This document shows, piece by piece, positions 11,067 to 55,088 of a stretch of DNA of 64,000 bases. A program made the position numbers and the translations under genes. Within the stretch, counting starts at the first letter, position 1. Each line of letters opens with the position of its first letter. Origin of the DNA: Leptotrichia massiliensis (GTDB taxonomy: Bacteria > Fusobacteriota > Fusobacteriia > Fusobacteriales > Leptotrichiaceae); contig NZ_FNVZ01000004.1 of assembly GCF_900104625.1 (NCBI RefSeq), forward strand, positions 248,001 to 312,000. Reading direction: 5' to 3'. The notes under the pieces are model-generated. The model saw only the letters and a program-made list of their open reading frames with translations, made no database searches and was not told the DNA's origin.

Positions 11067-11444
11067 TTATGAAACTATTAGTGGCAACAATACTGCAATA
11101 ATAGCCATTAAAGCAGGAAGTCCCTGCAATAAAAATATTTTTTTGGAAACTGTGACAGAACCATAAACAGATGCACAAATAATACAAATCAGGAAGAAAA
11201 CTGCAATTTGAATTTGAAATTCTCCAGTTTCAGTTAAACTCCATATTAATCCTGAGGCAAGAAAACTGTTGTATAATCCTTGATTTGCCATCATTTTTTT
11301 TACGCGCTCATCTTTTAAGAATTTTAAATCAAGTCCAAAATTTCGTTGTATAGTTTCACTTTCATTGAAATACATTTCAAGAATTAATATGTAGTAATGC
11401 TCAATTGCCACAAATAATATTAATATGAGTGCCAGTATGCTCAA
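11067..11444 (-). CDS. DUF1304-type small membrane protein
   Basis: This 125-residue protein has four hydrophobic segments (about residues 1-20, 55-72, 79-96 and 103-123). The stretch AIEHYYILILEMYF followed by the loop MMANQGLYNSFLASGLIW is characteristic of the DUF1304 (YqjF-like) family, whose function is unknown. Translation appears to start at TTG 11444, with GGGAG nine bases upstream; no ATG lies in the right place. It follows map on the same strand by about 45 bases. Confidence 0.75.
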   Translation of the reverse strand: MSILALILILFVAIEHYYILILEMYFNESETIQRNFGLDLKFLKDERVKKMMANQGLYNSFLASGLIWSLTETGEFQIQIAVFFLICIICASVYGSVTVSKKIFLLQGLPALMAIIAVLLPLIVS

Positions 11445-11490
11445 AATAATTCTCTCCCTTCTTTATATTTTCATGTTCTTTATTTTTAGT

Positions 11491-37255: not shown

Positions 37256-37990
37256 TTACATAAATTCTTTAAGATTATAATTTTGTACTTCTTTATATTC
37301 TTCAGGTGTTCCAAAAGATATATGTAAATCTGTCAAAAAATATTTTATTTTCATATTTTCTTTAATCATAATATTATATACTCCACTAATGAAATATTCA
37401 TTATAATTACAATCATCCAAATATTTTTGTGCAGATTTTTTAAATATATTTTTATTTTTAAAATAATATGCTCCACAAATCGCTTTATTGCTTATAACTT
37501 TTTTTTCCATTGTTTTAGTGACATTTCCTAAATCATTTATCTCAATATAGCTGAATCTTGGATCATTAGATGTAAATGTTAAAATTGCTCCATCAGCATC
37601 ATCCTTACTTTTTAAAATAAAATCATAAAAAGTTTCACACAAAAAACTGTGATCACAATCATTAAATAAAACTGGATTTTCATTATTAATCAATTCTATT
37701 CCTCTAAGACATGTTAAGACTGCTCCATTTAAAACTTGATCAATAATTTTCAACTTAGCATTTGGATAATATTTTAAAATTTCCCTATCTATTTTATATT
37801 TCTCAACATGCTCTTTTAACACAATAAAGATAAGGTCGTCAATTTTAGCAAACTTTACAATTGACTGAGTCGCCCAAAAAAAGAAAGGTTTCCCATTCAA
37901 TTCAATTAAAGGTTTAGGAATCTCAATCCCTTCTTTTTTAAATCTTGTTCCCCCACCAGCCATGGGCATTATTAAATTTATATTTCCCAT
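37256..37990 (-). CDS. Nucleotidyltransferase for a polysaccharide substituent
   Basis: This 244-residue protein has the sugar-nucleotidyltransferase start MPMAGGGTRFKKEGIEIPKPLIELNGKPFFFWA, with G-G-G-x-R and the PKPL turn. It also has a metal-site Asp in VLFNDCDHSFLC. It is shorter than NDP-hexose pyrophosphorylases, like cytidylyl- or uridylyltransferases for small alcohol phosphates and sugar phosphates. It is followed (in transcription it is preceded) by a HAD protein and a kinase-like protein. The trio suggests activation of a small phosphorylated group; the identity is unknown. Confidence 0.75.
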   Translation of the reverse strand: MGNINLIMPMAGGGTRFKKEGIEIPKPLIELNGKPFFFWATQSIVKFAKIDDLIFIVLKEHVEKYKIDREILKYYPNAKLKIIDQVLNGAVLTCLRGIELINNENPVLFNDCDHSFLCETFYDFILKSKDDADGAILTFTSNDPRFSYIEINDLGNVTKTMEKKVISNKAICGAYYFKNKNIFKKSAQKYLDDCNYNEYFISGVYNIMIKENMKIKYFLTDLHISFGTPEEYKEVQNYNLKEFM

Positions 37991-38015
37991 AAATAACTCC
38001 TGATAATATATTTTT

Positions 38016-38414
38016 TTAATCTATTCTTTCTCTTGCGTTATCTAACATTTTATTCAATTCTTCTTCATTATATTTCAAAAATTCATCAGGTCTTATTGCT
38101 CTATCATCAATGTAAAAACCACCTTTTCCTGGCCATGGTTTTCCAAAAATTATTTCATCATAAGGAATATCCCATTTATCTAGCCAGTCCATTGTCATTC
38201 TTGACGTATGAACATTGATTAATCCTAAATTTCCTCCATGAGTTCTCATTTGTCTTGCTGTAAATATTAATATTTTAAATCCTTCTTTTTTGTATTCTTT
38301 TAATTTTTTTACAATATTATCATAAGGTTTCAAATCTTCATATCTTTCATCTGCTTTTTTTATAGGACAAATTGTTCCATCTAAATCTACCACTAAAGTG
38401 CCTTTATTTTTCAT
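38016..38414 (-). CDS. HAD-family capsule phosphatase-like protein
   Basis: This 132-residue compact HAD protein has the nucleophile motif VVDLDGTICP at residues 8-17, a second motif ILIFTARQMRTHGGN and the late acidic motif FYIDDRAIRPDEF. No large cap domain is present. Similar short proteins occur next to nucleotidyltransferases in capsule loci and are annotated as capsule-biosynthesis phosphatases. Its start overlaps the end of the upstream kinase-like gene by 11 bases, so the two are coupled. Confidence 0.8.
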   Translation of the reverse strand: MKNKGTLVVDLDGTICPIKKADERYEDLKPYDNIVKKLKEYKKEGFKILIFTARQMRTHGGNLGLINVHTSRMTMDWLDKWDIPYDEIIFGKPWPGKGGFYIDDRAIRPDEFLKYNEEELNKMLDNARERID

Positions 38415-39876
38415 ATTTATTCAACTCCTTCATCATATTTATAGCATTCAGTATAAAAGCAAAAACTTTACTTGGTATATCAATATGTAATGGAAGCATT
38501 GATAAGAATAAAGAAGTCTCACATACTCTTATTACTTCCATATCATATCCATACTCTTTTACTTTTTTAATAAACATATCCTGTAATAATTTTAAATTAG
38601 CACTCTCAATTTTTAAGTCCATTTTTAAATTATTATTCAATTCTATTGTAAATAAACCATTATTCATAAAATCATAATTTCCCAATATTGAATGAGATAA
38701 TTTTGCTAAATCATAATATTCATTAGTATACATTTCATCTTCACTTACTGCCCCTTTTGGATCTATTAATTTTAGCATTTCAGATGATTTATCATACAAA
38801 GTATTTGAGAAACAGGGGTCTCCATGTCCAATAACTTCAATATATTTAAATTTTTTATTAAAAATTTCATTATAATATTTTTTATATTCTGCAAATATTT
38901 CATCTATCGAGTTATAATCAGTTGAAAATTTTATAAATAGGTCTATTTCTCCATAAATTTCCATTTCTTTTAATTTTTGTATTCGTTCTTCAACTTTTTT
39001 ATAATACAGCTCATTAAAAACTTTATTAAATTTTTCCTTTGATATATCTCTTTTTTCTCTTCTTATTATAAATTCAAATATTTTATTTAAATAATTTTCA
39101 AAACTCTCTTCATTAAATGAATTATGAATCCATTGTAATGCAACATCAGGAATATTTAGTCTTTCCATTGTATACGAAGCTCTTTCTTCATTTTCTTTAT
39201 AATCATATGGCATTACCATCCATTTTTGCATATGATGTGGAAGCATATAATAAAAATCATGCTCCTTTTTCATCTTTGTTTTGTCAACAGAACTCTTTGT
39301 TATTGTATATTTATCACTTGATAAAGAATTAAAATACCGTGCTTCAAAACTTCCTGAAAAAAAGAGTAAAAAATCTCTTAATTCTGACAAATTTATTTTA
39401 AAATCATTTGGTAAAATTTCATCTGTATCCAAAAAAAATTGATTTTTATTATTATCTAATATTCTTTTTGTTAGATATTCAGAATAACTTTGTATATTTG
39501 GAAATACTATTATACTAGAGTTATATTTATTATCTACCATTGTCTGATTAATATACTTGCATTTTTCTAAAAATATAAAAAATTTTTCTTCATTTACTAC
39601 GACATTACTTGATAAAAAATGAATGTATATTTTTTCTGAATCTTCTTTATCTTCAAATAATAAATTTTCTTTTAAATTTTCAATTTCTGTCCAGTTTTTT
39701 AAATATTCAAATCTAATCTGAACATTATGAAATTTCTCCAAAGTTTGTTTCAATCTTTCTATAAATTTAACTTTTTTGTAAATAATCTCACTATATCTTT
39801 TGTTTCCTATAATTCCAGAAATTATTCTTGAGGGTTTTTCTATATCATCATAAACAAAACATATTTTTTTTTCCAT
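38404..39876 (-). CDS. Kinase-like protein (APH/choline-kinase fold) of polysaccharide locus
   Basis: This 490-residue protein has a C-terminal region with EVIGHGDPCFSNTLYDKSSEMLKLIDPKGAV (about residues 345-375). This matches the Brenner catalytic H-G-D-x-x-x-x-N and the metal-binding D-P-K of aminoglycoside/choline kinases. The N-terminal 200 residues are not recognised, though they include a short dehydrogenase-like or glycosyltransferase-like pattern. With the HAD and nucleotidyltransferase genes downstream it may phosphorylate a small alcohol or sugar to be activated and attached to the glycan. This pathway is inferred. Confidence 0.65.
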   Translation of the reverse strand: MEKKICFVYDDIEKPSRIISGIIGNKRYSEIIYKKVKFIERLKQTLEKFHNVQIRFEYLKNWTEIENLKENLLFEDKEDSEKIYIHFLSSNVVVNEEKFFIFLEKCKYINQTMVDNKYNSSIIVFPNIQSYSEYLTKRILDNNKNQFFLDTDEILPNDFKINLSELRDFLLFFSGSFEARYFNSLSSDKYTITKSSVDKTKMKKEHDFYYMLPHHMQKWMVMPYDYKENEERASYTMERLNIPDVALQWIHNSFNEESFENYLNKIFEFIIRREKRDISKEKFNKVFNELYYKKVEERIQKLKEMEIYGEIDLFIKFSTDYNSIDEIFAEYKKYYNEIFNKKFKYIEVIGHGDPCFSNTLYDKSSEMLKLIDPKGAVSEDEMYTNEYYDLAKLSHSILGNYDFMNNGLFTIELNNNLKMDLKIESANLKLLQDMFIKKVKEYGYDMEVIRVCETSLFLSMLPLHIDIPSKVFAFILNAINMMKELNKYEK

Positions 39877-39891: not shown

Positions 39892-40764
39892 TTATTTTTT
39901 ACTAAAATATCTGATATTTATTCTAAATATAACAGAAGAAATCCCTATAACAAATATGATATAAGATATTTTTATTATTTCTACTGAATCAAATAATTTA
40001 AAGGTCAATATCTCAGGAATCATTAAAAAATTAAATTCAAAATTAAAAGCTCTAGCAAATAAATCATAAGATGATATTTCAAATATCCAAACTAATATAC
40101 TTATAAAAAATAATATTGGAATTCTCCCTTTTAACAAATATTTTGCATAATTATATAGTTCATTTATTTGTTCAATAACTTTTAAAATATAAATTCCTTT
40201 TCTGGTTTCACTTTTTGTTAAAATTATTCTATTTGTATACAGATATGTATATCTAAAACAAAGATAACAAAAAACAGAAAAAAATAAAAACGAAGATAAA
40301 TAGAAAAGTAATTTATAGCTTACAAATTGTTTTAATCCTATTCCAGATATTAAAATAAATGTTAATATTAAAGTATCAAAAAATCTATCTATCCAGGTTC
40401 CAATAAAACCCTTTCCAGAATTATCAAGCATATACGATATTTCCAAAATTTTAAATAAATCTCCTAATTTAAAAGGTATAAAATAATTTACGTATGTATA
40501 TGAAAGATAAACATTTATTAGTTCTTTTAAATTTCTTTTTTCTTCGATATAAATTATAAAAAATCTAATAAATCTAAAAATATGTGATACTATATATAAT
40601 AAAATAAATAATATCAAGTATTTTAAATTATATTCAAAATTATTGCCATATTTTGTAACATTATTTATAAAAAATATTGTTGCTATACATATAAATATTA
40701 AAAATATGTAATTCAAAATAGTTTTTCTTAAATTTATTCTTTTTAAACTTTTCAATATCATCAT
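39892..40764 (-). CDS. Flippase-like integral membrane protein (UPF0104/LPG synthase TM family)
   Basis: This 290-residue protein has about 7-8 membrane spans. The pattern YVNYFIPFKLGDLFKILEISYMLDNSGKGFIGTWIDRFFDTLILTFIL is typical of the lysylphosphatidylglycerol-synthetase transmembrane region family, members of which sit beside GT2 genes in glycolipid loci. Its stop overlaps the start of the GT2 gene by four bases. The role in lipid or lipid-sugar movement is inferred. Confidence 0.75.
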   Translation of the reverse strand: MMILKSLKRINLRKTILNYIFLIFICIATIFFINNVTKYGNNFEYNLKYLILFILLYIVSHIFRFIRFFIIYIEEKRNLKELINVYLSYTYVNYFIPFKLGDLFKILEISYMLDNSGKGFIGTWIDRFFDTLILTFILISGIGLKQFVSYKLLFYLSSFLFFSVFCYLCFRYTYLYTNRIILTKSETRKGIYILKVIEQINELYNYAKYLLKGRIPILFFISILVWIFEISSYDLFARAFNFEFNFLMIPEILTFKLFDSVEIIKISYIIFVIGISSVIFRINIRYFSKK

Positions 40765-41465
40765 CTTATACCTTTTTTCTTTAATTCTATACTATATTTT
40801 ATTATTCTTTTTATTAATTTCCATTTAGATAATAATCCAGTATTCCAACTCGAAACTCCATTAATTCTATTTGGAAAAAGTACATTTATTCTTTTAAAAT
40901 CTAATTTTTGCTTTTTTCCCATATATAATACGTATAAATCAAACGAAAAATCTTTTGGAGGTTCTATCCATGTCCTATAAAATTTTCTTGAAAATACATT
41001 CGGTTGTCCATTTATATCCCAAAGAAATTCTCTAAGATAAATTGTTTCAAAAATTGACATGCCTATTGTAAAAAAATTTTCAACAAAAGACCTTTTTTTT
41101 CTTTTTCCTTTCACATACATATTTTTATTCCAATTATTTTTTTCCAATATTTTATAAGCTCTTATAATATCTTGAGGATCTGTCTGCATATCTGCATGCA
41201 TCCACCCTAAAAAATCCCCCTTTGCTTCTTTTAAACCTTGAAGAATACCATAACCATATCCTTTATTTATAGGAACTAGCACAGTTCTTGCAAATAAATA
41301 TTTAGGAAGTAATCTTTTTAAAACTTCGTCTGAATTATCAGTGGAACCGTTATTAACTAATATTATTTCTATATCTTCGTTTTCCAAAATACTATCAAAT
41401 TTATCAAGAATTATCGGTATATTCTCTTCTTCATTATAACATGGTATAACTATAGACATTTTCAT
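40761..41465 (-). CDS. GT2 polyprenyl-phosphate-type glycosyltransferase
   Basis: This 234-residue enzyme resembles DPM1/GtrB catalytic domains. It opens SIVIPCYNEEENIPIILDKF, followed by NNGSTDNSDEV, NKGYGYGILQGLKEAKGDFLGWMHADMQTDP (metal site) and later NGQPNVFSRKFY. GtrB proteins usually carry two C-terminal membrane spans; these are missing here, so the enzyme is catalytic-only. It probably loads a sugar onto undecaprenyl phosphate. Neighbours are a flippase-like protein and GtrA. Confidence 0.87.
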   Translation of the reverse strand: MKMSIVIPCYNEEENIPIILDKFDSILENEDIEIILVNNGSTDNSDEVLKRLLPKYLFARTVLVPINKGYGYGILQGLKEAKGDFLGWMHADMQTDPQDIIRAYKILEKNNWNKNMYVKGKRKKRSFVENFFTIGMSIFETIYLREFLWDINGQPNVFSRKFYRTWIEPPKDFSFDLYVLYMGKKQKLDFKRINVLFPNRINGVSSWNTGLLSKWKLIKRIIKYSIELKKKGIR

Positions 41466-41517: not shown

Positions 41518-41898
41518 TTATTTTTTAAAAATCAAAAATTTTGAAGTTATATAATTTAATATTATTCCTATTATATTGGAAATTATTTTTAACAATTTAT
41601 CATCCTGTTTAAAAATTTCAACACCTATAACCATAATTCCGACATCTAAAACCCCTGTTATATATCTTGTAAAAGCAAAAAATAAAAATTCTTTTAAGAT
41701 TTTGTTTTTCAATTTTTCTTTTTTTTCAAAAACAAAGTTTCTATTTGCAAAGAAAGAAAATATCAAGGCTAAAATCCATGCAATTATACTTGACAAAATA
41801 TAATTCAGATTCGAAACACTTCTTAAAATAAAATAAATAAAGATATTCAAAAAAGTAGTTAATGCTCCAATTATACCGTATTTAAAAATTTCTATCAT
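41518..41898 (-). CDS. GtrA-family membrane protein
   Basis: This 126-residue protein has four membrane spans and the family-typical opening FKYGIIGALTTFLNIFIYFIL, then ANRNFVF and FFAFTRYITGVLDVGIMVIGVE. The GtrA family is proposed to flip undecaprenyl-phosphate-linked sugars. The gene is upstream of the GT2 gene and downstream of the large membrane-protein gene. Confidence 0.88.
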   Translation of the reverse strand: MIEIFKYGIIGALTTFLNIFIYFILRSVSNLNYILSSIIAWILALIFSFFANRNFVFEKKEKLKNKILKEFLFFAFTRYITGVLDVGIMVIGVEIFKQDDKLLKIISNIIGIILNYITSKFLIFKK

Positions 41899-41938: not shown

Positions 41939-44251
41939 TTACGGTGTTCCTATTACAATTTCAGGAACTATATATGCTTTCTTATTATTTTCATTTATAA
42001 ATTGAATTTTTGATATTTCTTTATTTGGAAAATCGTTTTTAAACCCGATATAACTTCTTTCCTTATCATTAAGCTGTAATAGTTCTAATACTTTATTTCC
42101 TTGTATATCATATCCTATAAGTTTTATTTTATCAAAATTATAATTTCTTACTCTTTTTGTATACAGATATTCTAATTTAAGCGGTTTCGGTAATACCATT
42201 TCTGTTATTTCCTCTTTTGAATTTAAATCATCTAAATAGTATTTTTCACCTAAAAAATATGTGTATTCTATTTTCCCAGTTTCCTTTCCAATATAATAAC
42301 CTTTTTGGTTTTCCATTATAAAAAATGGATAAATCGGAAGAGTCCAGCTATTGGTTTTATAAAACTTTGAATATTTTTTCCAATCCGAATGAACTTCATC
42401 ATATCTAAAAACATTATTATTTATTATTGGAGAATACCTTAATATGATAAATATTATTAAAATATTATATAAAATTTTTATATTATTTTTGCTTTCTCCC
42501 ATATTTCTTTTTACAATAAAAGGAATTAATACTAGTATAAGAAGCATTGGTATCCTTGTTAATAGTGCATGTCTGGTATTTATTGCTCCAAATGCCGTTG
42601 ACCACAAATTTGAACCGCTCCATACCTTAGATATGACATTCAAATATGAATTAATGAAAATCAGGGACAGTAGACTCAACAGTATAATACTTTCTCTATT
42701 TTTATTTTTAATACTGATATATACTAAAATTCCTGCTATTATTATAAAAATTATTAAATATACCATATTTAAATTAAGAATATTTTGATTTTGTTCTGTC
42801 CCAAAGTTAAATATATTTATAAATTGTTGTACAATTTGATGTGTTCCTATATTTATTATTTCCATAATCTTTATTTTCCCTATTGGTCTAAACCAGACTG
42901 TGGTATGCCTTCCAACTATTCTATATGCCGGTTCATTATCAAATCTTATCCAATTTTTTGTATGTCTATATGTATAAACTAACTGAATCATTGTTGATAA
43001 TGCTATAGAAACTAGAAAAATTTTATCTCTTATTTTCAATTTTTTCCATAACAATATTAAAATTCCCATTGCTACAGGTAATAATGTAATATAATGTAAT
43101 TTTGAAATACATAATAATACTGTTAATATCACTAATAATATATAATTTTTTTTCTTTAATTCATTAAAGTCTATCAGACTTATATAAAAAATCATTATTA
43201 TATTCATATATGCAAATGCTATAAATGTATGAGTTTCTGCATATGGAAATATATTAAAAACCGCAAACAGTATACTTACTGTAAATCTAAAAAATATATT
43301 CCCATATTTTCTAAATCTATGTAATACAAAAATGGAAGAGCCAAAACTTATAATTAAAATAGCTACATTTGACATTAAAAAAATTGTCCATCTGGCATTA
43401 AATCCTAATTTTGCTATTAAAATTGCTATTAACCTATGAAATAGAGGAAAATAGCCACCTTCCATTCTAAAAATATTTCCTGTAATTCCTTTACGGGCAT
43501 AATAAAAAAAATCATAAAATTCTTCTGCATAAGGTTCTGCTTTAAATGATAGTACCGGAGCTTTTATATTTATTAAAAAAAACGCTATTAATGCTGTTAC
43601 TATGTATATTTTAATATTATTTTTTTTCTGTTTTTTTATCAATTTTAAAAAATAAAAATAACTCGATATTGCTAAAAATAAAAATATAATCTGTCCTATT
43701 ACTATAGTATTTATTTCATAAAACTCTACTCTCTGAACTAATGATTTTTCTGTTTTTTCTCCATTTTGAAGTAATTCTCCATACATAATATCTTCTGTTT
43801 TATGCATAGATACTGAATTTCCTGTTTCTCCATCAATTCCTTCTATTTTTAAGGTAGCTTCTCCCTTTTTAAATTGAAAAAACTTAAGATTGAAAAAATG
43901 AAAATCATTATCTTTTATTTTGGACATATCTATTATTTCTACTTTTTTCTTACTTCCTTGTGTTAATTCAACTTTTATTTTTCCTTTATTACTTCTTCCA
44001 TATGTTGTAAATAAGACCCCATATCTTGTTATATACCCTGGAATATAAACTTTTTGTTCAAAAACTGTTCCTTTTGATAATTCCTTCGACAATTCCCAGT
44101 TGTATAATTTAGAAGCTTCTTCTTTTTGTGATTCATTTTTTATTGCCACTATTGACGGAATAACTATCCCAACAAGTAAAAAAAACATCCAAATAATTAG
44201 AGATTTTGAAAATTTTATTTTTTGTTTTTTTATATTATAAAAATTCTTCAC
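41939..44251 (-). CDS. Large membrane protein, probable lipid-linked-sugar glycosyltransferase
   Basis: This protein of 770 residues has an N-terminal membrane anchor (about residues 18-37) and a soluble beta-rich domain (to about 180) that probably sits in the periplasm. About 10 membrane spans follow, then a C-terminal soluble domain of about 130 residues. The layout resembles GT-C transferases and GtrC-type proteins. With GtrA and the GT2 enzyme it would form a side-branch glycosylation set. No GT-C DxD motif could be fixed with confidence (FKAEPYAEEFYDFFYY is a candidate loop). Confidence 0.65.
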   Translation of the reverse strand: MKNFYNIKKQKIKFSKSLIIWMFFLLVGIVIPSIVAIKNESQKEEASKLYNWELSKELSKGTVFEQKVYIPGYITRYGVLFTTYGRSNKGKIKVELTQGSKKKVEIIDMSKIKDNDFHFFNLKFFQFKKGEATLKIEGIDGETGNSVSMHKTEDIMYGELLQNGEKTEKSLVQRVEFYEINTIVIGQIIFLFLAISSYFYFLKLIKKQKKNNIKIYIVTALIAFFLINIKAPVLSFKAEPYAEEFYDFFYYARKGITGNIFRMEGGYFPLFHRLIAILIAKLGFNARWTIFLMSNVAILIISFGSSIFVLHRFRKYGNIFFRFTVSILFAVFNIFPYAETHTFIAFAYMNIIMIFYISLIDFNELKKKNYILLVILTVLLCISKLHYITLLPVAMGILILLWKKLKIRDKIFLVSIALSTMIQLVYTYRHTKNWIRFDNEPAYRIVGRHTTVWFRPIGKIKIMEIINIGTHQIVQQFINIFNFGTEQNQNILNLNMVYLIIFIIIAGILVYISIKNKNRESIILLSLLSLIFINSYLNVISKVWSGSNLWSTAFGAINTRHALLTRIPMLLILVLIPFIVKRNMGESKNNIKILYNILIIFIILRYSPIINNNVFRYDEVHSDWKKYSKFYKTNSWTLPIYPFFIMENQKGYYIGKETGKIEYTYFLGEKYYLDDLNSKEEITEMVLPKPLKLEYLYTKRVRNYNFDKIKLIGYDIQGNKVLELLQLNDKERSYIGFKNDFPNKEISKIQFINENNKKAYIVPEIVIGTP

Positions 44252-44284: not shown

Positions 44285-45025
44285 TTAGTTTTCTGTAGTA
44301 TGTTCTATATATTCTTTCAATACTTCATTGGGAATTCCACTTCTTTTTATTTTACCTGATTCTATCCAGATTACTTTATTACATAACTTTTCCATTGTAT
44401 GTAAATCATGGGATACTATAACTATAGTAATTCCACTATCCTTTAATTCCTGCATTTTCCTAAAACATTTTGCTTGAAAATTGGCATCTCCAACTGATAA
44501 TATCTCGTCTATTAAAAGTATCTCCGCTTCTACATTAATTGCAACTGAAAAAGCTAGCCTCATATACATTCCGGAAGAATATGTCCTAATTGGACTATCT
44601 ATAAATTCTTCTAATTCTGAAAATTTAATGATTGTATCTAACTTAGAATCAATCTCCTTTTTGGTTAATCCATATATAGAAGCATTTATATAAATATTTT
44701 CTCTACCGGTCATATCTGGATGAAATCCTGCTCCAAGTTCTATTAAACTGGATACTTTTCCATTTATTTTTATATTTCCTGAATCTGGATATATAATTTT
44801 TGTAATTAATTTTAATAGAGTACTTTTTCCAGAACCATTTTTTCCAACTATACCTAAAATATCTCCTTTTTCTATATCAAAAGATATTCCTCTAAGAATA
44901 TTATTTTTAACATATGCATTTCTACTCTTAAAAAATAATATTCTTTCTTTTAATGTAAATCCTTTATCCTTATAAATCTTAAAACTCTTTTCTACATTCT
45001 CTACACTTATAGCTATTTCCTTCAT
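44285..45025 (-). CDS. Polysaccharide ABC exporter ATPase (Wzt/TagH/KpsT type)
   Basis: This 246-residue ATPase has Walker A GKNGSGKSTLL, signature YSSGMYMRLAFSV, Walker B ILLIDEILSVGDANFQ and switch His IVSHDLHTM. It ends soon after, so the C-terminal carbohydrate-binding domain found in O9a-type Wzt is missing. The length fits KpsT/TagH-like proteins or Wzt of the coupling-free kind. The start overlaps the permease stop by one base (TAATG). It powers export of a polyprenyl-linked glycan across the inner membrane. Confidence 0.92.
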   Translation of the reverse strand: MKEIAISVENVEKSFKIYKDKGFTLKERILFFKSRNAYVKNNILRGISFDIEKGDILGIVGKNGSGKSTLLKLITKIIYPDSGNIKINGKVSSLIELGAGFHPDMTGRENIYINASIYGLTKKEIDSKLDTIIKFSELEEFIDSPIRTYSSGMYMRLAFSVAINVEAEILLIDEILSVGDANFQAKCFRKMQELKDSGITIVIVSHDLHTMEKLCNKVIWIESGKIKRSGIPNEVLKEYIEHTTEN

Positions 45026-45798
45026 TATAGTTCCTCCGCAAAGCTTTTTTGCAATTTTTCAAACACAAAATATCCAACAAATATCATAATTACACTATAT
45101 AATACAGCACTTCCAAAAAATGAAAAATCTGGTATTTTTTTATAATACAATATTTCTCTATAAAATATTATAATACTTGTCATCGGATTCATTAAAAATA
45201 TTCCTCTATATTCTGAAGGAACCATATCCATTGAATAAACAATTGGTGTTGCATAAAACCAGGCCATTATAACTATATTCAAAATATACTCCAAATCTCT
45301 AAAGAATACATCTAATGCAGCAAATATAAAGGTAATACCTAATACCATTATATATTGTAAAATCATGATAACTGGTAACAATAAAACATACCAGCTTAAT
45401 CCAACTTCACTAAAAGATACTGTTAGGATAACTACTATCATTGTGTAAACCATATTCATAAATGCTGCATTTACAGTAGCTATTGGCAATACTATTCGAG
45501 GAAAATAAATTTTTTTTACTAAATCCTTATTAGCTACTATACTAACAGATCCCGCTTGAATACATGTTGTAAAAAAAATCCATGGAACAAGTCCTACAAA
45601 TAGATAAATATGAAAATTTTTTATATTAGATTTTAAAATAACAGAAAATACAATTGTATAAATTATCAATTGTAGTAACGGATTTAAAAATGTCCAGAAG
45701 AAACCTAAAATAGATCCTTTATATCTTACTTTGAGCTCTTTATTAACTAAACTATAAATCATCTGCCTATAATTATATATTTCTTTCAATATTTTCAT
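45025..45798 (-). CDS. Polysaccharide ABC exporter permease (Wzm/TagG type)
   Basis: This 257-residue ABC-2 type membrane protein opens with YNYRQMIYSLVNKELKVRYKGSILGFFWTFLNPLLQLIIYTIVF, the family signature, and has six membrane spans. It forms the channel with the ATPase encoded next. The pair indicates an ABC-dependent pathway rather than Wzx/Wzy; no Wzy or Wzz was found in the window. Confidence 0.93.
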   Translation of the reverse strand: MKILKEIYNYRQMIYSLVNKELKVRYKGSILGFFWTFLNPLLQLIIYTIVFSVILKSNIKNFHIYLFVGLVPWIFFTTCIQAGSVSIVANKDLVKKIYFPRIVLPIATVNAAFMNMVYTMIVVILTVSFSEVGLSWYVLLLPVIMILQYIMVLGITFIFAALDVFFRDLEYILNIVIMAWFYATPIVYSMDMVPSEYRGIFLMNPMTSIIIFYREILYYKKIPDFSFFGSAVLYSVIMIFVGYFVFEKLQKSFAEEL

Positions 45799-45814
45799 TT
45801 TTTCTCCTTAATCA

Positions 45815-46864
45815 TTACTTTATTCTCTTTTTTAATTTTAGAAAAATAGAATCTTTATTAATATATTTATTTAATAAATATGAAAATAGTACACTTATAC
45901 ACATAGCCATTAATATTATTTTTAATTCAGGAAAAGAACCTATTGAAAAATAAAATCTTTGAACTAAAAAGACTAATACTATTTGATGAATTAAATAAAA
46001 TTCCATACTAATTTTCCCTAATTTTTTTAATAAAGAATTATTTAAAATTTTTGAAATAAAACCTTTATCAAAACTAAAAACTAAAATTAAAAAGGAGATT
46101 GGAAATATATAGTATATATCCCATCTATAAATTAATGGAATTTTACTAATTCCGATATACATAAAAATAAGTAACATTAGTATACTAATAAATTCTAAAA
46201 TAGTTGCTTTTTTTCTTGTTATATATTGTTGTATTCTTAAATAAATTTCATAAAGCAATACACCACTAAAAAAATCTATAAAACGAAAAACAGGATTTAC
46301 ATAATAAAACCATGTTCCTAATTCTTCTGTTATGTTAAACTTTATAATTATTGTTATTATAGATAGCATGAATATTGCATAACTCCATAACAATTTTCTT
46401 AGAGGAAGTTTTAGAAAATATAGAAATATAATATAGAAAAAAAATAAATTTGAAATACACCATGCCACACCATTAAACTTAAAAGCAAAACCATCTAAAG
46501 GAACAAAACTCTGTACTAAAAATAGAAATGGAATTACTGATGATAGAACATCCTGTAATGATATTTTATAAATAATTATTGACAATAGCATCGTAATCAT
46601 ATATATAGGATAAATTTTTTTTACTCTTTTTATCAAAAACTCTTCCTTTAAAACTTTATTTGTTATTATCTTACTTTTATACCCATATGAACAAACAAAG
46701 CCAGATAAAATAAAGAAAAACTGAACACCTATAAAAGCTTCAAAAATCCAATTTTCCAAAAAAAGTTTATCATTATATAATTTGAATACATCAAAATGAT
46801 GAATAAATATCAAAAATATAAATATAAATCTTAAAGAATTTATTGCGTTCAATTCTTTTTTCAA
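45815..46864 (-). CDS. Acyltransferase 3 family membrane protein
   Basis: This 349-residue protein has about ten membrane spans. The first helix INSLRFIFIFLIFIHHFDVF carries the conserved Arg and the His pair, and FFILSGFVCSYGYKSK follows. It probably acetylates the polysaccharide. It lies between the double glycosyltransferase and the exporter genes. Confidence 0.87.
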   Translation of the reverse strand: MKKELNAINSLRFIFIFLIFIHHFDVFKLYNDKLFLENWIFEAFIGVQFFFILSGFVCSYGYKSKIITNKVLKEEFLIKRVKKIYPIYMITMLLSIIIYKISLQDVLSSVIPFLFLVQSFVPLDGFAFKFNGVAWCISNLFFFYIIFLYFLKLPLRKLLWSYAIFMLSIITIIIKFNITEELGTWFYYVNPVFRFIDFFSGVLLYEIYLRIQQYITRKKATILEFISILMLLIFMYIGISKIPLIYRWDIYYIFPISFLILVFSFDKGFISKILNNSLLKKLGKISMEFYLIHQIVLVFLVQRFYFSIGSFPELKIILMAMCISVLFSYLLNKYINKDSIFLKLKKRIK

Positions 46865-46899
46865 AAATTACACCTTCCTTCTAAATAATTATTTTTTAA

Positions 46900-49656
46900 T
46901 TAATAGAAATTTTTCAATTCCTTTGCTACATTTTTAGCACATTCTTCCCATGTAATAGACTTCCAATTTTCTTCTATATTTCTATTTTTTTCTTCTAATT
47001 TATCTAAATTTTTATAATAATATAATATTTTCTCTGCCCATTCTTTTGCATTATAAGGGTTTGCATAATCAATAAAATCTCCACCTATCTCTTTAAGAGG
47101 TGCAACATCTGAAGCAATACAAAACTTCCCATAATTTAAACTTTCTGGCAAAGTCAGACTCCATCCTTCATATAAACTAGCTAACACTGTAAATAAACTA
47201 TTTTTATATAAGATTTCTAATTCTATGTCATTTGGAGTTATTATAATTATTTTATTTTTTATTCTTTCGTCTCTTTCTAATCTCTCTAGCAGTTCTTCAG
47301 TTTTCCATCCAGGATATCCGCAGAAAATCATTTGAGGTAAGTCTTCAGCCATTTTCATTAATTCCAAATACGCCTGATATAGTATATCATGATTTTTTCT
47401 GGCTTCTATAGAACCAACTGCCATAATATAAGATTTATCAATATTATACTTTTCAAATACTTTTTCTCTTAATTTTTTATCATCTAAATTCAATTTTACT
47501 GTAACATCACTTCCAAATTTTACCGGTATCCCTTCTCTTTCTGGAAGACTGTTGTCCTTAGCATATTTTAATCCATCTAACATAGCTGTTTTTCCGCCAT
47601 AAAATACTGCATCACTAAGTTTGTAAGTTCTATCTAAAAATACTTTGTAAAATATCTTAGTTTCTTCCTTATGTGTTTGCGGAACAATAGTTGGAGTAAA
47701 ATCATAAATCAATTGGAAAAATTTAAATTGATTTTTCTTTTTAGATTCTTCTATTACATCATAAACATGTTCATTATATCCTACTCCTACTGAAAAAAAT
47801 ATGTCTTTTTCCTTAAAGGGAAGTAAATAGCTTGTTTTCTTTATTTGTATTCCTTTTTTTTCTTTTATTTTATTTATATGCTTTACCATCATTTTTTGAA
47901 TTTTTGAAGGAAATAAACTAACCATCAGCCATATTGCTTCTCCGAATTTTTCGTTTCGTGATAACATTTTTTTCTTTTCATAAATTGCTGATGATTTTTG
48001 AGTTGTTAACCATTTAATCTGATGACTCAATTCCTTAAAACCTTCTTCTATAGATTTACTGGAAAATAATTGATTTATTGAGTATTTATCTAAAATTATG
48101 TACTTATCATCCAATAGTACAATGTACTCTATATTATTTATTTCACTGATTAAATTTTTAGCTAATTGTAACTGCGTTCTTAATATTCCGCTTACATTAG
48201 ATTTTGAAAAAATTGAATGCCATATCAAAGTCAAGTCATAATAAATTTTTCCATTATATTTTAAATTTTCATCAGCTATTTGCAATAAATATTCATTTAC
48301 TTTTTGACCGCAATCTTTCCAAGTTATTGATTTCCAATTTTTTTCTATTTTTTCAGAATAGGATTTTAATATCTCATTATTCTCATTATAATACAATATT
48401 TTATTCATCCACTCTACTGAATCCATTGTTTCAACATAATCTGACAATTCACCTGCTATTTCTCTTAGAGGTGCAACATCTGAACATAAACAAAATTTAC
48501 CATAACTTAAAGACTCAGGTAATGTCAGGCTCCATCCTTCATAAACAGTTGGTAATATAGTAAATTTACAATTTCTATAGATAACATCTAATTCTTCATC
48601 TGAAGGTGTTATTAATGTTATTTTTTTAGATAGCTCTGTATCATTTTCTATAAACTCTCCTGTCAGTCCAGTTGGATGACCTCCAACAATTACCAGTTGC
48701 GGTATTTTTTCTTCAGGCAATGATTGTAACATTAGTTTGTACGCCCTATATATTGTCATATAATTTTTTTTCGGATCTATTGAACCTACTGCTAAAATAT
48801 AATCATCCGATATACTATATTTCTTTAAAACATCTTCTTTTGAACAACTACCAGTACTTCTTATTATGTTAGAACCAAATTTTACAGGAAAACCTTTTTT
48901 TATTGGTAATTTATTTTCTTTAAAGAACTCTTCCGCATCTTTTTTAGCAGTTTCTCCGCCATAAAAAATGTAATCACAGTTTGTGGAAATCCATGTCAGG
49001 TATTTTGAAAAGATTTTTTGACCGTCATAAAGATGTTTTAAGCCTTTTTTTACTAATACTAAATCATAAACTAAATAAATTAACTTTATATTCTGCAATG
49101 ATGATTTTAATCTTGAGTATTGATATTCTTTATTACTTGTATACCAACCACAAGAAAAAATTATATCACCCTCTTTAAAAGGGTGAGTGAATTCATAATT
49201 GTCTTTTTTATTAATTAATTTATTTCGAAATCCATTATTGAATTTAGAAATTATTTTTAATGGTATATAAATTAAATTTGTAATAATTATTGCTAGTATT
49301 TTTTTTATTCCATGTAATTTAGAATGTATTATTTTTTTTAATATTTTAGCTCGTTCTATTCTAGCTGTTGATGTATTTATTGCTTTTTTTAGACCTTCTG
49401 GCATTTCAAATTCATTACTTTTATTATTTCTATTGAAATGTTTAATATATGCATCTGAAACACTATCTGACTTCCAAAGCCACTCTAATTCTTCCGATTT
49501 TATTTCAGAAAATCCTATTTCTTCACTTACACAAAAACGAATCTCTGGATTTTCTTTTTTTAAATTTTTAGCTATCTCTAGTTCCGCTCTGACAATTCCA
49601 ACACATCCACCATCCCAGATACGCATTGTATTTGTTAAATCCATCCAAATTGACAC
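46900..49656 (-). CDS. Two-domain GT4 glycosyltransferase
   Basis: This 918-residue protein contains two complete GT-B units in tandem. The first has AVGSIDPKKNYMTIYRAYK, then FTILPTVYEGWSLTLPESLSYGKFCLCSDVAPLREIAG. The second has AVGSIEARKNHDILYQAY, then FTVLASLYEGWSLTLPESLNYGKFCIASDVAPLKEIGG. Each unit ends in WKSITW. The likeness shows an internal duplication; both E-x7-E pairs are intact. Bifunctional polymerising transferases (WbdA type) are built this way, so it may make the repeat-unit backbone. Confidence 0.87.
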   Translation of the reverse strand: MSIWMDLTNTMRIWDGGCVGIVRAELEIAKNLKKENPEIRFCVSEEIGFSEIKSEELEWLWKSDSVSDAYIKHFNRNNKSNEFEMPEGLKKAINTSTARIERAKILKKIIHSKLHGIKKILAIIITNLIYIPLKIISKFNNGFRNKLINKKDNYEFTHPFKEGDIIFSCGWYTSNKEYQYSRLKSSLQNIKLIYLVYDLVLVKKGLKHLYDGQKIFSKYLTWISTNCDYIFYGGETAKKDAEEFFKENKLPIKKGFPVKFGSNIIRSTGSCSKEDVLKKYSISDDYILAVGSIDPKKNYMTIYRAYKLMLQSLPEEKIPQLVIVGGHPTGLTGEFIENDTELSKKITLITPSDEELDVIYRNCKFTILPTVYEGWSLTLPESLSYGKFCLCSDVAPLREIAGELSDYVETMDSVEWMNKILYYNENNEILKSYSEKIEKNWKSITWKDCGQKVNEYLLQIADENLKYNGKIYYDLTLIWHSIFSKSNVSGILRTQLQLAKNLISEINNIEYIVLLDDKYIILDKYSINQLFSSKSIEEGFKELSHQIKWLTTQKSSAIYEKKKMLSRNEKFGEAIWLMVSLFPSKIQKMMVKHINKIKEKKGIQIKKTSYLLPFKEKDIFFSVGVGYNEHVYDVIEESKKKNQFKFFQLIYDFTPTIVPQTHKEETKIFYKVFLDRTYKLSDAVFYGGKTAMLDGLKYAKDNSLPEREGIPVKFGSDVTVKLNLDDKKLREKVFEKYNIDKSYIMAVGSIEARKNHDILYQAYLELMKMAEDLPQMIFCGYPGWKTEELLERLERDERIKNKIIIITPNDIELEILYKNSLFTVLASLYEGWSLTLPESLNYGKFCIASDVAPLKEIGGDFIDYANPYNAKEWAEKILYYYKNLDKLEEKNRNIEENWKSITWEECAKNVAKELKNFY

Positions 49657-49692
49657 TTTTTATACTCCTCCTATTTTACTTTATTATAAAAA

Positions 49693-50736
<1,044 letters not shown>

Positions 50737-50742
50737 CTAAAT

Positions 50743-51654
50743 TTATCTATTTTTATAATAATCTAACATTTTTACTAATATATCTTTTACACTTTGAGAT
50801 TTCTTACCATTCATAAATTCCCATAGTCTTGTTGTATCTCCAATCATTCTCCAAACTTCATTTTTTCTAACAAAATCTGACGAAATCTCAATTTCAGGTT
50901 TAAAATCTGTTATTTCCTGAAGTAATTGTATTATCATTTCACCATTTGTTGGAATTCCTGAACAGATATTAAGAATATCAAAATCTAATTTTTTTCTTGA
51001 TATTAATTCCATTATAACTTCTGCACAATATTCAACATCGACATAATCTCTAAAAGATGATATATTTCCAACAGAAAGTTTTTCTTTTCTATCTGCAAAA
51101 TGTTCTACCAACTTAGGAACTAAAAATTTTTCACTTTGACCAACTCCTATAATGTTAAACGGTCTTATTGTTACAATATCTAAATCCTCTTTATACTGTT
51201 TACTTATATATTCTGTAATCATCTTACTATATGAATAATGATTCGCTGGATTATAAGTAAGATTTTCTCCGTATTTATCTACATTTTGATTTCCATAAAC
51301 TCCTGCTGTACTTGCCAAAATTACTCTAGTATTTTTGTCACAATAATTTTGTGCTGATTCTAATAAATTTTCTGTCCCTTGAACATTTACATTATAAATT
51401 TCTCCAGTATTTTTATGAGTAACCAATGCAATTGCTGCTAAATGTACTATAACATTAGGTTTATACGATTTTATAACTTCACCCAAATTTTCTTTATCTA
51501 AAAGAGAAATAACTCTTTGATTTTCTGATGAAACATCTAGAACTTTTTGGGCATCAATAGCTAAAAAGTCTAAATCATTATCTTTAATTTTTTTAAGTAC
51601 ATACTTGCCTATAAATCCAGAGGCTCCTGTTATTAAAATTTTTTTTTCTTTCAT
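50743..51654 (-). CDS. GDP-6-deoxy-D-mannose reductase-like (Rmd)
   Basis: This 303-residue extended SDR protein has ITGASGFIGKYVLKKI (cofactor), NVQGTENLLES, STAGVYGNQNVDKYGE, and YSYSKMITEYI with the Tyr-Lys pair. It also has the RMD-like FNIIGVGQSEKFLVPKLVEHFADRKEKLSVGN, FRDYVDVEYC and ILNICSGIP. Next to gmd the likely product is GDP-D-rhamnose. GDP-L-fucose synthase is less likely because of the sequence pattern and length. The family match is good; the product is inferred. Confidence 0.8.
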   Translation of the reverse strand: MKEKKILITGASGFIGKYVLKKIKDNDLDFLAIDAQKVLDVSSENQRVISLLDKENLGEVIKSYKPNVIVHLAAIALVTHKNTGEIYNVNVQGTENLLESAQNYCDKNTRVILASTAGVYGNQNVDKYGENLTYNPANHYSYSKMITEYISKQYKEDLDIVTIRPFNIIGVGQSEKFLVPKLVEHFADRKEKLSVGNISSFRDYVDVEYCAEVIMELISRKKLDFDILNICSGIPTNGEMIIQLLQEITDFKPEIEISSDFVRKNEVWRMIGDTTRLWEFMNGKKSQSVKDILVKMLDYYKNR

Positions 51655-51687
51655 ATCTCTTCCTTTATTTCTATTAATCTCTAAAAT

Positions 51688-52764
51688 TTATAAATATTCA
51701 TTCCTATTGCAAATTCTTAGATTATTGATAATTTCCTTAACTTCTTGTGAATTGTTTTTATGACAAATCAGTGTTACATCTTCAGTATCTACAATTACTA
51801 TATCCTCTAAACCAATAGTTGCGATAAGTTTTTCATTACCTTGTATTATTGAATTTTTTGTTTTTATACTTATAACATTTCCACTTATAACATTTCCATC
51901 TTGATTTGTCTTATTAATTCTTTCAAGTGAAAGCCAACTTCCTACATCATCCCACCCAAAGTTTCCTGGAATCACATAAATGTTTTTAGCTTTTTCCATT
52001 ATCCCATAATCTATAGATTCTGACGGAAGATTTGGAAATTCTTTTCTTAACACTTCTTCATATTCTTCTGTATTTATTGACTCTCCTATTTTTTGCAGTC
52101 CTTCATAAATTTCTGGCAAATATTCTTTAAAATTTTTCAAAATAGTTGATGCTTTCCATACAAACATTCCACTATTCCATAAATATTGTCCACTTGTTAA
52201 GTATTCTTTAGCTTTTTCTAAATTTGGTTTTTCCACAAAACGTAAAACTTCATAAACGTTTGCACTATCTTTAAAATTTTCACCTTTTGTAAAGTTAATA
52301 TACCCATATCCTGTTTCAGGATAATTTGGAGTAATTCCTATTGTTACCAGATTATCTCCTTTCTCAACTACATTTAATGTCGTTTTTAATGTGTCGATGA
52401 AAATTTCATTAAATTTAATTAAATGATCTGAAGGTAAAATTATCATTTTTGAATTTATATCCTTTTTCGCAATATGCATTGCAGCAAGTCCAATACAAGG
52501 TGCTGTATTTTTAGCAACTGGTTCAATGATTATATTCTCTTTTGGTATATCTGGGATATTCTCTAAAACCAAATTTTTATACATTTCATTTGTTACCACG
52601 TAAACATTTTCAATATCTACTAAACTTTTTACCCTTTCGACTGTATGTTGTATCATAGATTTCCCATCATCTGTTAAAGATAAAAATTGCTTTGGTAAAT
52701 TTATTCGGCTTTTAGGCCAAAACCTTTCACCTTTTCCACCAGCCATTATTACTACTGAAGTCAA
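51688..52764 (-). CDS. manC: Mannose-1-phosphate guanylyltransferase
   Basis: This 358-residue enzyme makes GDP-mannose from GTP and mannose-1-phosphate. Seen are MAGGKGERFWPKSR, FVEKPNLEKAKEYL and WNSGMFVWKASTIL, with PLSP-type residues LPSDHL. It lacks the phosphomannose isomerase domain fused to ManC/AlgA in many bacteria, which matches a separate manA at 20.4 kb. It sits upstream of the reductase and gmd genes in the locus. Confidence 0.95.
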   Translation of the reverse strand: MTSVVIMAGGKGERFWPKSRINLPKQFLSLTDDGKSMIQHTVERVKSLVDIENVYVVTNEMYKNLVLENIPDIPKENIIIEPVAKNTAPCIGLAAMHIAKKDINSKMIILPSDHLIKFNEIFIDTLKTTLNVVEKGDNLVTIGITPNYPETGYGYINFTKGENFKDSANVYEVLRFVEKPNLEKAKEYLTSGQYLWNSGMFVWKASTILKNFKEYLPEIYEGLQKIGESINTEEYEEVLRKEFPNLPSESIDYGIMEKAKNIYVIPGNFGWDDVGSWLSLERINKTNQDGNVISGNVISIKTKNSIIQGNEKLIATIGLEDIVIVDTEDVTLICHKNNSQEVKEIINNLRICNRNEYL

Positions 52765-52841
52765 TGTAGCTCCTCCTTTTTTATTTGAAATTTTATTAGT
52801 GTGTTTTCAGAATTACATAAAACAACAACTATTATTATAAA

Positions 52842-53738
52842 TTATTTTTTTAATAAACTTTCTAAATATTTTTTATAATTACAATTTTTTAACTTATTTA
52901 TTATTTTAACAAGCATTTCTTTGTCTATCCAGCCTTTTGTATAGGCAATTTCTTCAAGACAGGCAATATAAAAGCCTTGTCTATTTTGAATTGCTTCTAC
53001 AAAATTTGAAGCCTCTAACAAACCTTTTGGTGTACCTGTGTCAAACCAACTCATCCCACGTCCGAGAGTTTTTACTTTTAATTTTTCTTCAATCAAATAA
53101 AGTTCATTAATTGATGTTATTTCTAGCTCTTTACGTTTTGATGGCTTTAATGTCTTAGCTTTTTTTATAACTGTATTATCATAAAAATACAGTCCTGGGA
53201 TTGCAAAATTTGATTTAGCTATTTGCGGTTTTTCTTGTAAAGAAATGACATTTCCGTGTTTATCAAATTCAACAACACCATAATCACTGGGATTTTTCAC
53301 TGGATAACCAAATATCATTGCACCATTATTATTTAATTCTGTTTTTTTAGAATTTTCAAAGTAATCAATCGCTTCTTCAAGAATTTTTGAAAATCCATTT
53401 CCATAAAATATGTTATCTCCCAAAATCAATGTAACATTATCACAATCAATAAAGTCTTCTCCTATCAAAAAACATTCCGCAATTCCATTTGGCTCATTTT
53501 GAATTTTATATTCAATATTTATTCCTAATTGCTTTCCATCTCCAAGAAGATTTTCGAATAACAAGATATCTCTTGGTGTGGAAATTATTAAAATATTCTT
53601 TATATTTGCAAGCATAAGTACAGATAAAGGATAATAAATCATAGGCTTATCATAAACTGGCAATATTTGTTTGGAAATAGATTTTGTCAATGGATAAAGT
53701 CTTGTGCCAGAACCTCCAGCTAAAACAATTCCCTTCAT
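52842..53738 (-). CDS. rfbA: Glucose-1-phosphate thymidylyltransferase
   Basis: This protein of about 298 residues makes dTDP-glucose. Seen are KGIVLAGGSGTRLYPLTKSISKQILPVYDKPMIYYPLS, LILGDNIFYG, VVEFD...SLQEKP and SWFDTGTPKGLLEAS, the RmlA family set. The frame is open to 53762, but AAGGAGGAG precedes ATG 53738. The partners rfbB, rfbC and rfbD are not in this window, so the use of dTDP-glucose here is open. Confidence 0.94.
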   Translation of the reverse strand: MKGIVLAGGSGTRLYPLTKSISKQILPVYDKPMIYYPLSVLMLANIKNILIISTPRDILLFENLLGDGKQLGINIEYKIQNEPNGIAECFLIGEDFIDCDNVTLILGDNIFYGNGFSKILEEAIDYFENSKKTELNNNGAMIFGYPVKNPSDYGVVEFDKHGNVISLQEKPQIAKSNFAIPGLYFYDNTVIKKAKTLKPSKRKELEITSINELYLIEEKLKVKTLGRGMSWFDTGTPKGLLEASNFVEAIQNRQGFYIACLEEIAYTKGWIDKEMLVKIINKLKNCNYKKYLESLLKK

Positions 53739-53792
53739 AAGTCTCCTCCTTAAATAAACCATTTAATAAAAAGAATTTTTTCAATTTCAATA

Positions 53793-55088
53793 TTATTTCC
53801 CTTTTCCAAATAAAACAGCCTTAGCCGTTTTTGCAACAATAAGCACATCAAGTATTAAGTCCTGATGTTTTAAATAGTATAAGTCATATTCAAGTTTTCT
53901 CTTTGCATCATCTAAACTTTCGCCGTATGGAAACATTACTTGAGCCCAACCTGTTATTCCAGGTTTTATAAGATGCCTTAGATTGTAGTAGTTTATCTGT
54001 TCTGCGTAATCTTTGGCTAGTATATCCCATTCTGGACGTGGTCCAATAAAACTCATTGTCCCTTTCAAAATATTCCAAAGTTGTGGTAATTCATCGATTC
54101 TTGTTTTTCTAATAAATTTTCCAAATTTTGTAACTCTTGTGTCACAATCCAAAGTATACTTTGAATATTTTTTAGGATCATGCAGTTTCATACTTCTAAA
54201 TTTATAAACTTTGAAAGGTTTCATATTTTCGCCTATTCTTGTTTGTTTAAATATAACTGGCCCTTTAGATTCGCATTTAATAATTATTGCAGTAATTAAT
54301 GCGAGAGGAGAAAGAACGACCATTAAAATTAATGCTAGTATTAAATCCATTCCTCTTTTTATATTTCTTTGCATTTCATTGTTCAAAATATCAAATCCAT
54401 TTGATTGTAAAATCCATTCTTCATTTATTTGATTTATATCAATTTTCTTTTGGATATCTTCATTGAATTCTTCATAATTCATTATTTTTAATCCATTAAT
54501 TTTCAAATCAAAAATACGTTTTGAATATTTTTTAAAATCAGGACTTTTTATATCTTTTACAATTACTAGAATATCCACATTATTTTTTACAATAATTGAT
54601 TCCATTTCATCATATTTTCCAATTAAATATTTTGTTGCTCTAGTTTTATTATTTGAAATATATCCAATATAATTATAGTCAAGGGTATTTATAATATCTT
54701 CTTGGATGTTATTGTCTATATGATTTGACCCAAATATTAATACATTTTGTTTTTTCATATAAATTGAGCATATAATTTTTCTAAAAATTACTTGAAACAC
54801 AAATATTAATCCAAACATATAAAATACATCAAAACGCTTCCAAAAGGCATATAACATTACAGAAAAGATACTATCAATTCCTAAATTTATAAAAACATCT
54901 TTAAGCCTAAAACGTTCTGCATAAAAATCCAGTTGTCCAAATACAAACTTTACAAATATAAATAAAATAAATATAAAATTTGTTAAATATTTTACTACAT
55001 AGTCATATTTATCTAATAAAAGACTATAAATCATATATAAAATAAAAATATATAATATACGTATGCGTATATCTTTATTTAGTTTCAT
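53793..55088 (-). CDS. Initiating polyprenyl glycosylphosphotransferase (WbaP/WcaJ type)
   Basis: This 431-residue protein has four membrane spans, then a CoA-binding-like fold (VLIFGSNHIDNNIQEDI), and the catalytic C-terminal domain. That domain has MDLILALILMVVLSPLALITAIII, FKQTRIGENMKPFKVYKFRSM, RKTRIDELPQLWNILKGTMSFIGPRPE and LRHLIKPGITGWAQ. It moves a sugar phosphate onto undecaprenyl phosphate to start the glycan. As the first gene of the locus it marks the probable operon start; the promoter lies in the gap above. Confidence 0.92.
   Translation of the reverse strand: MKLNKDIRIRILYIFILYMIYSLLLDKYDYVVKYLTNFIFILFIFVKFVFGQLDFYAERFRLKDVFINLGIDSIFSVMLYAFWKRFDVFYMFGLIFVFQVIFRKIICSIYMKKQNVLIFGSNHIDNNIQEDIINTLDYNYIGYISNNKTRATKYLIGKYDEMESIIVKNNVDILVIVKDIKSPDFKKYSKRIFDLKINGLKIMNYEEFNEDIQKKIDINQINEEWILQSNGFDILNNEMQRNIKRGMDLILALILMVVLSPLALITAIIIKCESKGPVIFKQTRIGENMKPFKVYKFRSMKLHDPKKYSKYTLDCDTRVTKFGKFIRKTRIDELPQLWNILKGTMSFIGPRPEWDILAKDYAEQINYYNLRHLIKPGITGWAQVMFPYGESLDDAKRKLEYDLYYLKHQDLILDVLIVAKTAKAVLFGKGK

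Follow-up and report, generated by a model that had tools for sequence, protein, structure and literature searches.

Three contiguous genes in the Leptotrichia massiliensis window

A 64,000-nucleotide stretch of the 2.54 Mb genome of Leptotrichia massiliensis (RefSeq contig NZ_FNVZ01000004.1; positions 248,001 to 312,000), here called the window, was examined for three genes that an earlier note, made from the DNA sequence alone, had described as a linked kinase-like, HAD and nucleotidyltransferase trio. The segment concerned (coordinates 37256-39876, minus strand) was found to be filled exactly by three intact open reading frames (ORFs), and the linkage is thus borne out. KIN (coordinates 38404-39876) is a complete kinase-like ORF of 490 amino acids (aa), HAD (coordinates 38016-38414) is a complete ORF for a small phosphatase of 132 aa related to EcbF/BcbF, and NTP (coordinates 37256-37990) is a complete ORF for a nucleotidyltransferase of 244 aa that belongs to PF00483. 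KIN and HAD overlap by 11 bases, and 25 bases separate HAD from NTP.

The HAD protein matched the EcbF-BcbF model TIGR01689 over nearly its full length (E 1.3e-43; 147.9 bits), just missing the curated cut-off of 162, and is related to the solved structure 1xpj (E 3e-37). NTP exceeded the PF00483 cut-off (34.6 bits against 21.2), and a profile of the NTP family compared with solved structures found a sole relative at E <= 1e-10, the nucleoside-diphosphate-sugar pyrophosphorylase 4evw (E 1.5e-77). The window KIN did not reach the cut-off of any Pfam or NCBIfam model, PF01636 included. The PF01636 cut-off of 23.2 was passed by its relatives in loci L003 (24.2 bits) and L007 (23.4 bits).

KIN carries a catalytic loop, HGDPCFSN (residues 351-358; coordinates 38803-38826, minus strand), and a metal-binding motif, DPKG (residues 372-375; coordinates 38752-38763, minus strand), both identified from the sequence and alignment. 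In alignments of chosen subsets of the loci described below, the invariant residues were K194, K201, E205, H351, G352, D353, N358 and D372 in KIN (61 sequences), D10, D12, T14, K92, D103 and D104 in HAD (29 sequences), and G12, R16, K26, D113, E162 and K163 in NTP (35 sequences). Catalytic roles are assigned to these residues from general knowledge of the superfamilies. The HGDxxxxN loop and the Asp of the DPK motif, cited in the earlier note for the kinase fold, are kept across the family, as are the residues expected to be catalytic in all three proteins.

Conservation of the gene set in other genomes

A scan of bacterial genomes with the KIN alignment found relatives of KIN encoded in at least 533 stretches, of which the best 80, mostly near relatives rather than independent cases, were kept. 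These come mostly from Lachnospiraceae and other Firmicutes, with Saccharibacteria also represented, and the KIN proteins of Cohnella and Paenibacillus are 45-46% identical. With six others, they make up the 86 loci L002-L087. When these were searched by tblastn within 3 kb of KIN on the same strand, 57 had both HAD and NTP, 14 had only HAD, four had only NTP and 11 had neither. NTP lay further off in the locus in five of the 14 loci with HAD alone, and a few of the loci are cut off by the end of a contig. The genomes of 11 loci without HAD beside KIN were searched further, and HAD was present on another contig in eight. Ten of the 11 also had no NTP beside KIN, and in these a full-length NTP match was found elsewhere in nine and only a fragment in one. 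In a survey of 98 genomes of the phylum, KIN was found in two and HAD in exactly those two.

The ORFs surrounding KIN were clustered for 85 loci (84 with a KIN ORF, and the window). LPG_synthase_TM (PF03706) proteins were found in 77, encoded upstream of KIN, and GT2 proteins in 64, with a further five in the GT2 cluster to which the window protein belongs. HAD and NTP were each found in at least 61 (the ORFs were filtered, and these counts are lower bounds), and the next commonest family was found in 30. In the Firmicutes-type loci, as in the window, the GT2 and LPG_synthase_TM genes lie upstream of KIN and are often accompanied by GtrA. The unit is thus larger than the trio, with GT2, LPG_synthase_TM and often GtrA belonging with KIN, HAD and NTP.

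Two variants of the arrangement were seen. HAD and NTP are fused into a single protein of 375-388 aa in five loci (L026, L047, L059, L061 and L064), and three contigs titled Candidatus Saccharibacteria (L016, L019 and L035) carry a five-gene module, GT2-LPG_synthase_TM-KIN-HAD-NTP.

A second type of locus in Escherichia coli and on plasmids

Twelve loci (L002-L007 and L088-L093) were of a different type. They came from five of eight plasmid records matched by tblastn, from the phylum survey (L002), and from E. coli records found by DNA similarity to one trio, a search that returned 120 records, most matching part of HAD, and of which six of the 30 listed were examined. KIN, HAD and NTP occur together in all 12, although the NTP frame is broken in L002, and in three gene orders (HAD-KIN-NTP, KIN-HAD-NTP and NTP-HAD-KIN). 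By annotation these are mostly capsule or O-antigen loci, including E. coli O78, O20/O137 and kps loci. The co-occurrence of the three genes therefore extends well outside the window, and the trio consists of conserved, co-occurring protein families, with chance excluded.

Where the match spans at least 298 residues, identity between the window KIN and the KIN proteins of the second type is 24-30%, and by sequence comparison the family falls into two clear subfamilies, a window/Firmicutes type and the other type. Partner genes also differ, being GT2, LPG_synthase_TM and GtrA in the former and of the WavE or KfoD types in the latter. WavE-family genes were found in six of the 12 loci (L002, L003, L005, L007, L089 and L093), and L092 has a more remote relative (E 7e-6). 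KfoD of the K4 capsule aligns weakly with WavE (E 0.19). As a lead only, WavE-family proteins are candidate fructosyltransferases. The O78 locus (L089; coordinates 9001-11728) has a complete trio together with a WavE gene, and this type was found in 40 of 5426 genomes.

Identity of KIN with KfoE

Locus L091 is of the E. coli K4 type, as its 686-aa GT2 protein matches the chondroitin synthase 2z86 over 625 residues. Both 50-base arms of the kfoE deletion primers given in PMC7429809 have exact matches in L091. One falls where HAD ends (coordinates 9220-9269, plus strand) and the other where NTP begins (coordinates 11616-11665, minus strand). The arms flank the KIN gene, and the deleted gene, KfoE, is therefore KIN. 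The two halves of the L091 protein each align with the window KIN (E 6e-5 and 6e-20), which by sequence belongs to the KfoE family.

According to PMC7429809, deletion of kfoE prevents fructosylation of the K4 capsule, and two further papers, where they mention kfoE, credit it with fructose addition. Within the trio, the genetics of K4 show a need for KIN alone.

The L091 KIN gene (coordinates 9270-11615) is split by IS1, and copies free of the insertion sequence were found in other strains. In some E. coli K4-type loci, the gene for fructosylation has been lost naturally through IS1 insertion.

A second case may be provided by L090 and L107, which have the NTP-HAD-KIN order. The kps type of L090 was found in 37 of 5426 genomes, and L107 is from an O15:H18 strain of sequence type (ST) 69. 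ST69 corresponds to clonal group A. The clonal group A strain UMN026 is given as O17:K52:H18 in PMC2617782, and a title cited by PMC5566550 describes K52 as "fructose-containing", providing circumstantial evidence that L090 and L107 are K52 loci.

Predicted fold of KIN

The structure model of KIN (pLDDT 93.8) has two domains. Residues 175-490 (coordinates 38407-39354, minus strand) are predicted to form an APH-type kinase fold (Foldseek match to 5byl, E 4.7e-6; VIA Z up to 17.4), in agreement with the kinase fold first proposed. VIA matches included glucosamine kinase 6hwl (Z 17.4, root-mean-square deviation 4.3, 279 residues aligned), maltokinase 4u94 (Z 17.4, root-mean-square deviation 4.2, 272 residues aligned), methylthioribose kinase 2pu8 (Z 16.0) and N-acetylhexosamine 1-kinase 4ocv (Z 14.3).

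The N-terminal part, about 200 residues that the earlier note had called unfamiliar, has a predicted nucleotidyltransferase fold over some 170 residues. When residues 1-172 (coordinates 39361-39876, minus strand) were modelled separately (pLDDT 93.6), all seven Foldseek matches at E <= 0.001 were nucleotidyltransferases, headed by LicC (1jyl), and the top VIA match was IspD (Z 11.4 over 151-161 residues), followed by AGPase, TarI and GlmU. However, the usual GGxGTR-like nucleotidyltransferase signature was not seen by eye in this domain, and no column was invariant among 54 sequences. As the signature is absent and no column is invariant, it is probably a non-catalytic binding or docking domain. 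When five N-domains of the other type were compared with NTP by profile, the alignment was in register at E 0.0049, though with a probability of only 7%, whereas window-type N-domains gave no match to NTP, and N-domain profile searches of solved structures returned only chance-like matches. PF00483 (cut-off 21.2) was just exceeded by the KIN of L093 (21.5 bits) and just missed by that of L003 (21.1 bits). The N-domain is absent from the L005 KIN, which adjoins a Tn3 transposase and may be truncated.

These folds bear on whether KfoE is itself the fructosyltransferase, with HAD and NTP acting otherwise nearby. KfoE is so named in the text of PMC7429809 and in the title of Liu 2014 as given in a reference list, and the nucleotidyltransferase fold of the N-domain resembles that of GT-A glycosyltransferases, some of which appear lower in the Foldseek list. 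However, the residues conserved throughout the family are those of a kinase and lie with a C-domain predicted to be of the APH type. The best matches of the N-domain are nucleotidyltransferases, the domain is poorly conserved, with no invariant column, and HAD and NTP co-occur with KIN. A transferase role for KfoE is thus considered improbable.

A proposed route to a nucleotide sugar

The combination of a kinase, a phosphatase and a nucleotidyltransferase follows the logic of known routes to nucleoside diphosphate (NDP) sugars, and the trio is proposed to be a sugar-activation pathway. KIN would act on a sugar or a sugar phosphate and phosphorylate its anomeric oxygen, HAD would remove the other, distal phosphate, and NTP would couple the remaining anomeric phosphate to a nucleotide. 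As KfoE is tied to fructose, the simplest route in K4 would run from fructose 6-phosphate through fructose 2,6-bisphosphate and fructose 2-phosphate to NDP-fructose, with the phosphatase acting first and the kinase second an equally possible order.

In the window, the trio adjoins GT2, LPG_synthase_TM and GtrA genes, and this gene order suggests lipid-linked export. From KIN outwards, the genes encode a 290-aa LPG_synthase_TM membrane protein (coordinates 39892-40764), a 234-aa GT2 glycosyltransferase with no predicted membrane span (coordinates 40761-41465), a 126-aa GtrA/DPMS-type membrane protein (PF04138; coordinates 41518-41898) and a 770-aa membrane protein with about 11 spans and no Pfam match (coordinates 41939-44251), all on the minus strand. 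GT2 would load the activated sugar onto polyprenyl phosphate, and the LPG_synthase_TM protein, as a putative lipid flippase, and the GtrA protein, as a putative flippase subunit, would flip the lipid-linked sugar. The 770-aa protein, a candidate outer-face transferase by its position, would add the sugar to the glycan outside.

What this analysis shows is the association of the genes, the predicted folds, the conservation of the catalytic residues and the placement of KIN in the KfoE family. From these we infer the reactions and their order, the nucleotide, the export route, the roles of HAD and NTP, and fructose as the window sugar. The explanation as a whole, in which a KfoE-type pathway of nucleotide-sugar activation serves fructose in K4 and in the window feeds GT2, flipping and transfer outside, is favoured, though not by much. 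Within it, we infer with more confidence that a nucleotide sugar is activated, and with less that the sugar in L. massiliensis is fructose. A more specific version is doubtful and is offered tentatively: that the trio is the missing pathway of fructose activation, through fructose 2-phosphate (perhaps the 2,6-bisphosphate) to NDP-fructose with KfoE as a kinase, and that in the window, the Firmicutes and Saccharibacteria it feeds fructose linked to polyprenyl phosphate, which is flipped and transferred outside.

Some bacterial capsules contain fructofuranose, and how bacteria activate fructose for polysaccharides has apparently not been described. Among the titles and opening parts of abstracts searched, no described donor for bacterial fructofuranose and no bacterial NDP-fructose pathway was found. 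If the proposal is correct, KfoE would be re-assigned and all three enzymes of the donor pathway would be named. The pathway would then be present in several E. coli surface-polysaccharide types (the K4 type, the probable K52 locus, O78 and O20/O137), an overlooked acid-labile sugar would be predicted in O78, and there would be a means of producing chondroitin with or without fructose.

Relationship to known pathways

The K4 capsule locus has the same KIN, HAD and NTP families as the window. However, the K4 polysaccharide is an ABC-exported chondroitin made by a kps locus, whereas the window carries GT2, LPG_synthase_TM and GtrA genes and no gene like WavE or KfoD. The MupP-AmgK-MurU route for recycling N-acetylmuramic acid in Pseudomonas, as outlined in the literature, likewise combines a phosphatase, a sugar kinase and a nucleotidyltransferase to give an NDP-sugar, and AmgK has the APH fold. 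It differs in that the window HAD is of the EcbF/BcbF type and KIN has an extra N-domain, and the window NTP scored only 14.8 bits with the MurU model NF045761, far under the cut-off of 250. In the GDP-heptose route, HddA, GmhB and HddC are a kinase, a HAD phosphatase and a nucleotidyltransferase acting in sequence, with HddA a GHMP kinase. However, KIN has the predicted APH fold, the window trio lacks a sedoheptulose isomerase, and matches to the HddC (NF049965) and GmhB models were weak (38.2 and 18.4 bits against cut-offs of 300 and 149.6). LicA-LicC phosphocholine activation shares an APH-fold kinase and a small nucleotidyltransferase, but the substrate class differs and KIN has the additional N-domain. 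To our knowledge, the LicA-LicC route has no HAD step.

Points against fructose, and other possible substrates

Several observations weigh against the proposed pathway or against fructose as its sugar. The predicted fold of KIN does not by itself select a substrate, as kinases for non-sugar substrates score close to the sugar kinases: aminoglycoside kinases reached Z 17.3, the choline/ethanolamine kinase family member 3dxq 16.0 and LicA (4r77) 15.4. Such matches would suit the proposal of the earlier note, here read as the phosphorylation of a small alcohol or phosphoramidate group and its activation with CMP or UMP as a decoration of the glycan, as would LicC at the head of the N-domain list and a weak Pfam choline kinase match in seven of 61 KIN proteins (best E 1.4e-4). 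However, a phosphatase is not expected in a route of the LicA-LicC type, the solved relative of NTP is a sugar-nucleotide pyrophosphorylase, the best structural matches of KIN include sugar kinases, and KfoE is needed for fructose in the K4 experiments reported in PMC7429809. What stands of that proposal is that the trio probably makes a nucleotide-activated donor in polysaccharide loci, while a small alcohol or phosphoramidate is very improbable.

NTP provides a further difficulty. The window protein is 28% identical to the K4 (L091) NTP, 29% to that of L009 and 53% to that of L072, whereas the L009 and K4 proteins are 38% identical to each other, and the GQAET motif is GAVLT in the window. 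With NTP divergent and this motif changed, the product or the nucleotide may differ. The window NTP was the sole match to the NTP family profile in its genome.

Among the locus NTP proteins compared, that of the window is an outlier that shares its changed motif only with L072, as though another protein had taken the place of the usual NTP.

The trio of the window and Firmicutes type could activate another sugar (a pentose, a heptose or another ketose), with fructose particular to K4-like loci. The clear division between the KIN subfamilies, the divergence of the window NTP from both sets and the different partner genes all favour this, as does O78, in which fructose is not known. On the other side, the HAD protein, which probably acts on the sugar itself, is 47% identical to that of K4 and 75% to that of L009, and the catalytic residues of KIN and HAD are unchanged. 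Another sugar is rated unlikely, if a serious alternative.

The remaining points concern the fructose pathway itself. No protein in the window region resembled WavE (best profile E 0.78), and no window protein clustered with KfoD. Of the 11 genomes searched for a HAD away from KIN, three showed none at all. Replacement of kfoE by a cassette could be polar on NTP, and K52 is attributed to L090 and L107 by lineage rather than by typing. The published O78 repeat consists of mannose and N-acetylglucosamine, is not known to contain fructose and has no obvious need of the trio or the WavE gene. Their presence suggests an overlooked acid-labile residue, and loss of such a fructose during preparation would account for the discrepancy. 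Finally, Campylobacter jejuni HS1 makes fructose branches with HS1.08, and the table of its 11-gene variable locus in PMC7901785 lists no such trio.

Other genes and observations

In the window, the order of genes is the 770-aa membrane protein, GtrA, GT2, LPG_synthase_TM, KIN, HAD and NTP. Beyond the 770-aa protein, the region at coordinates 44285-55088 includes sugar transferase, ManC-like, GDP-mannose dehydratase, reductase-like and ABC exporter genes, which suggest an ABC-exported glycan with a deoxysugar derived from GDP-mannose, perhaps D-rhamnose. Within it, a 918-aa protein (coordinates 46900-49656) has two GT4-type stretches and is likely a bifunctional glycosyltransferase.

The solved structures 1xpj and 4evw are Vibrio cholerae proteins (1xpj being VC0232). 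Fructose in the V. cholerae core was considered as further support and rejected, as literature searches did not confirm it and a primer-based search found no match in 394 genomes. VC0231 is reported in PMC10458087 to be involved in phage VP3 adsorption. In C. jejuni IA3902, the products listed for CJSA_1353-1355 are 240, 507 and 132 aa, a likeness to the trio by size alone.

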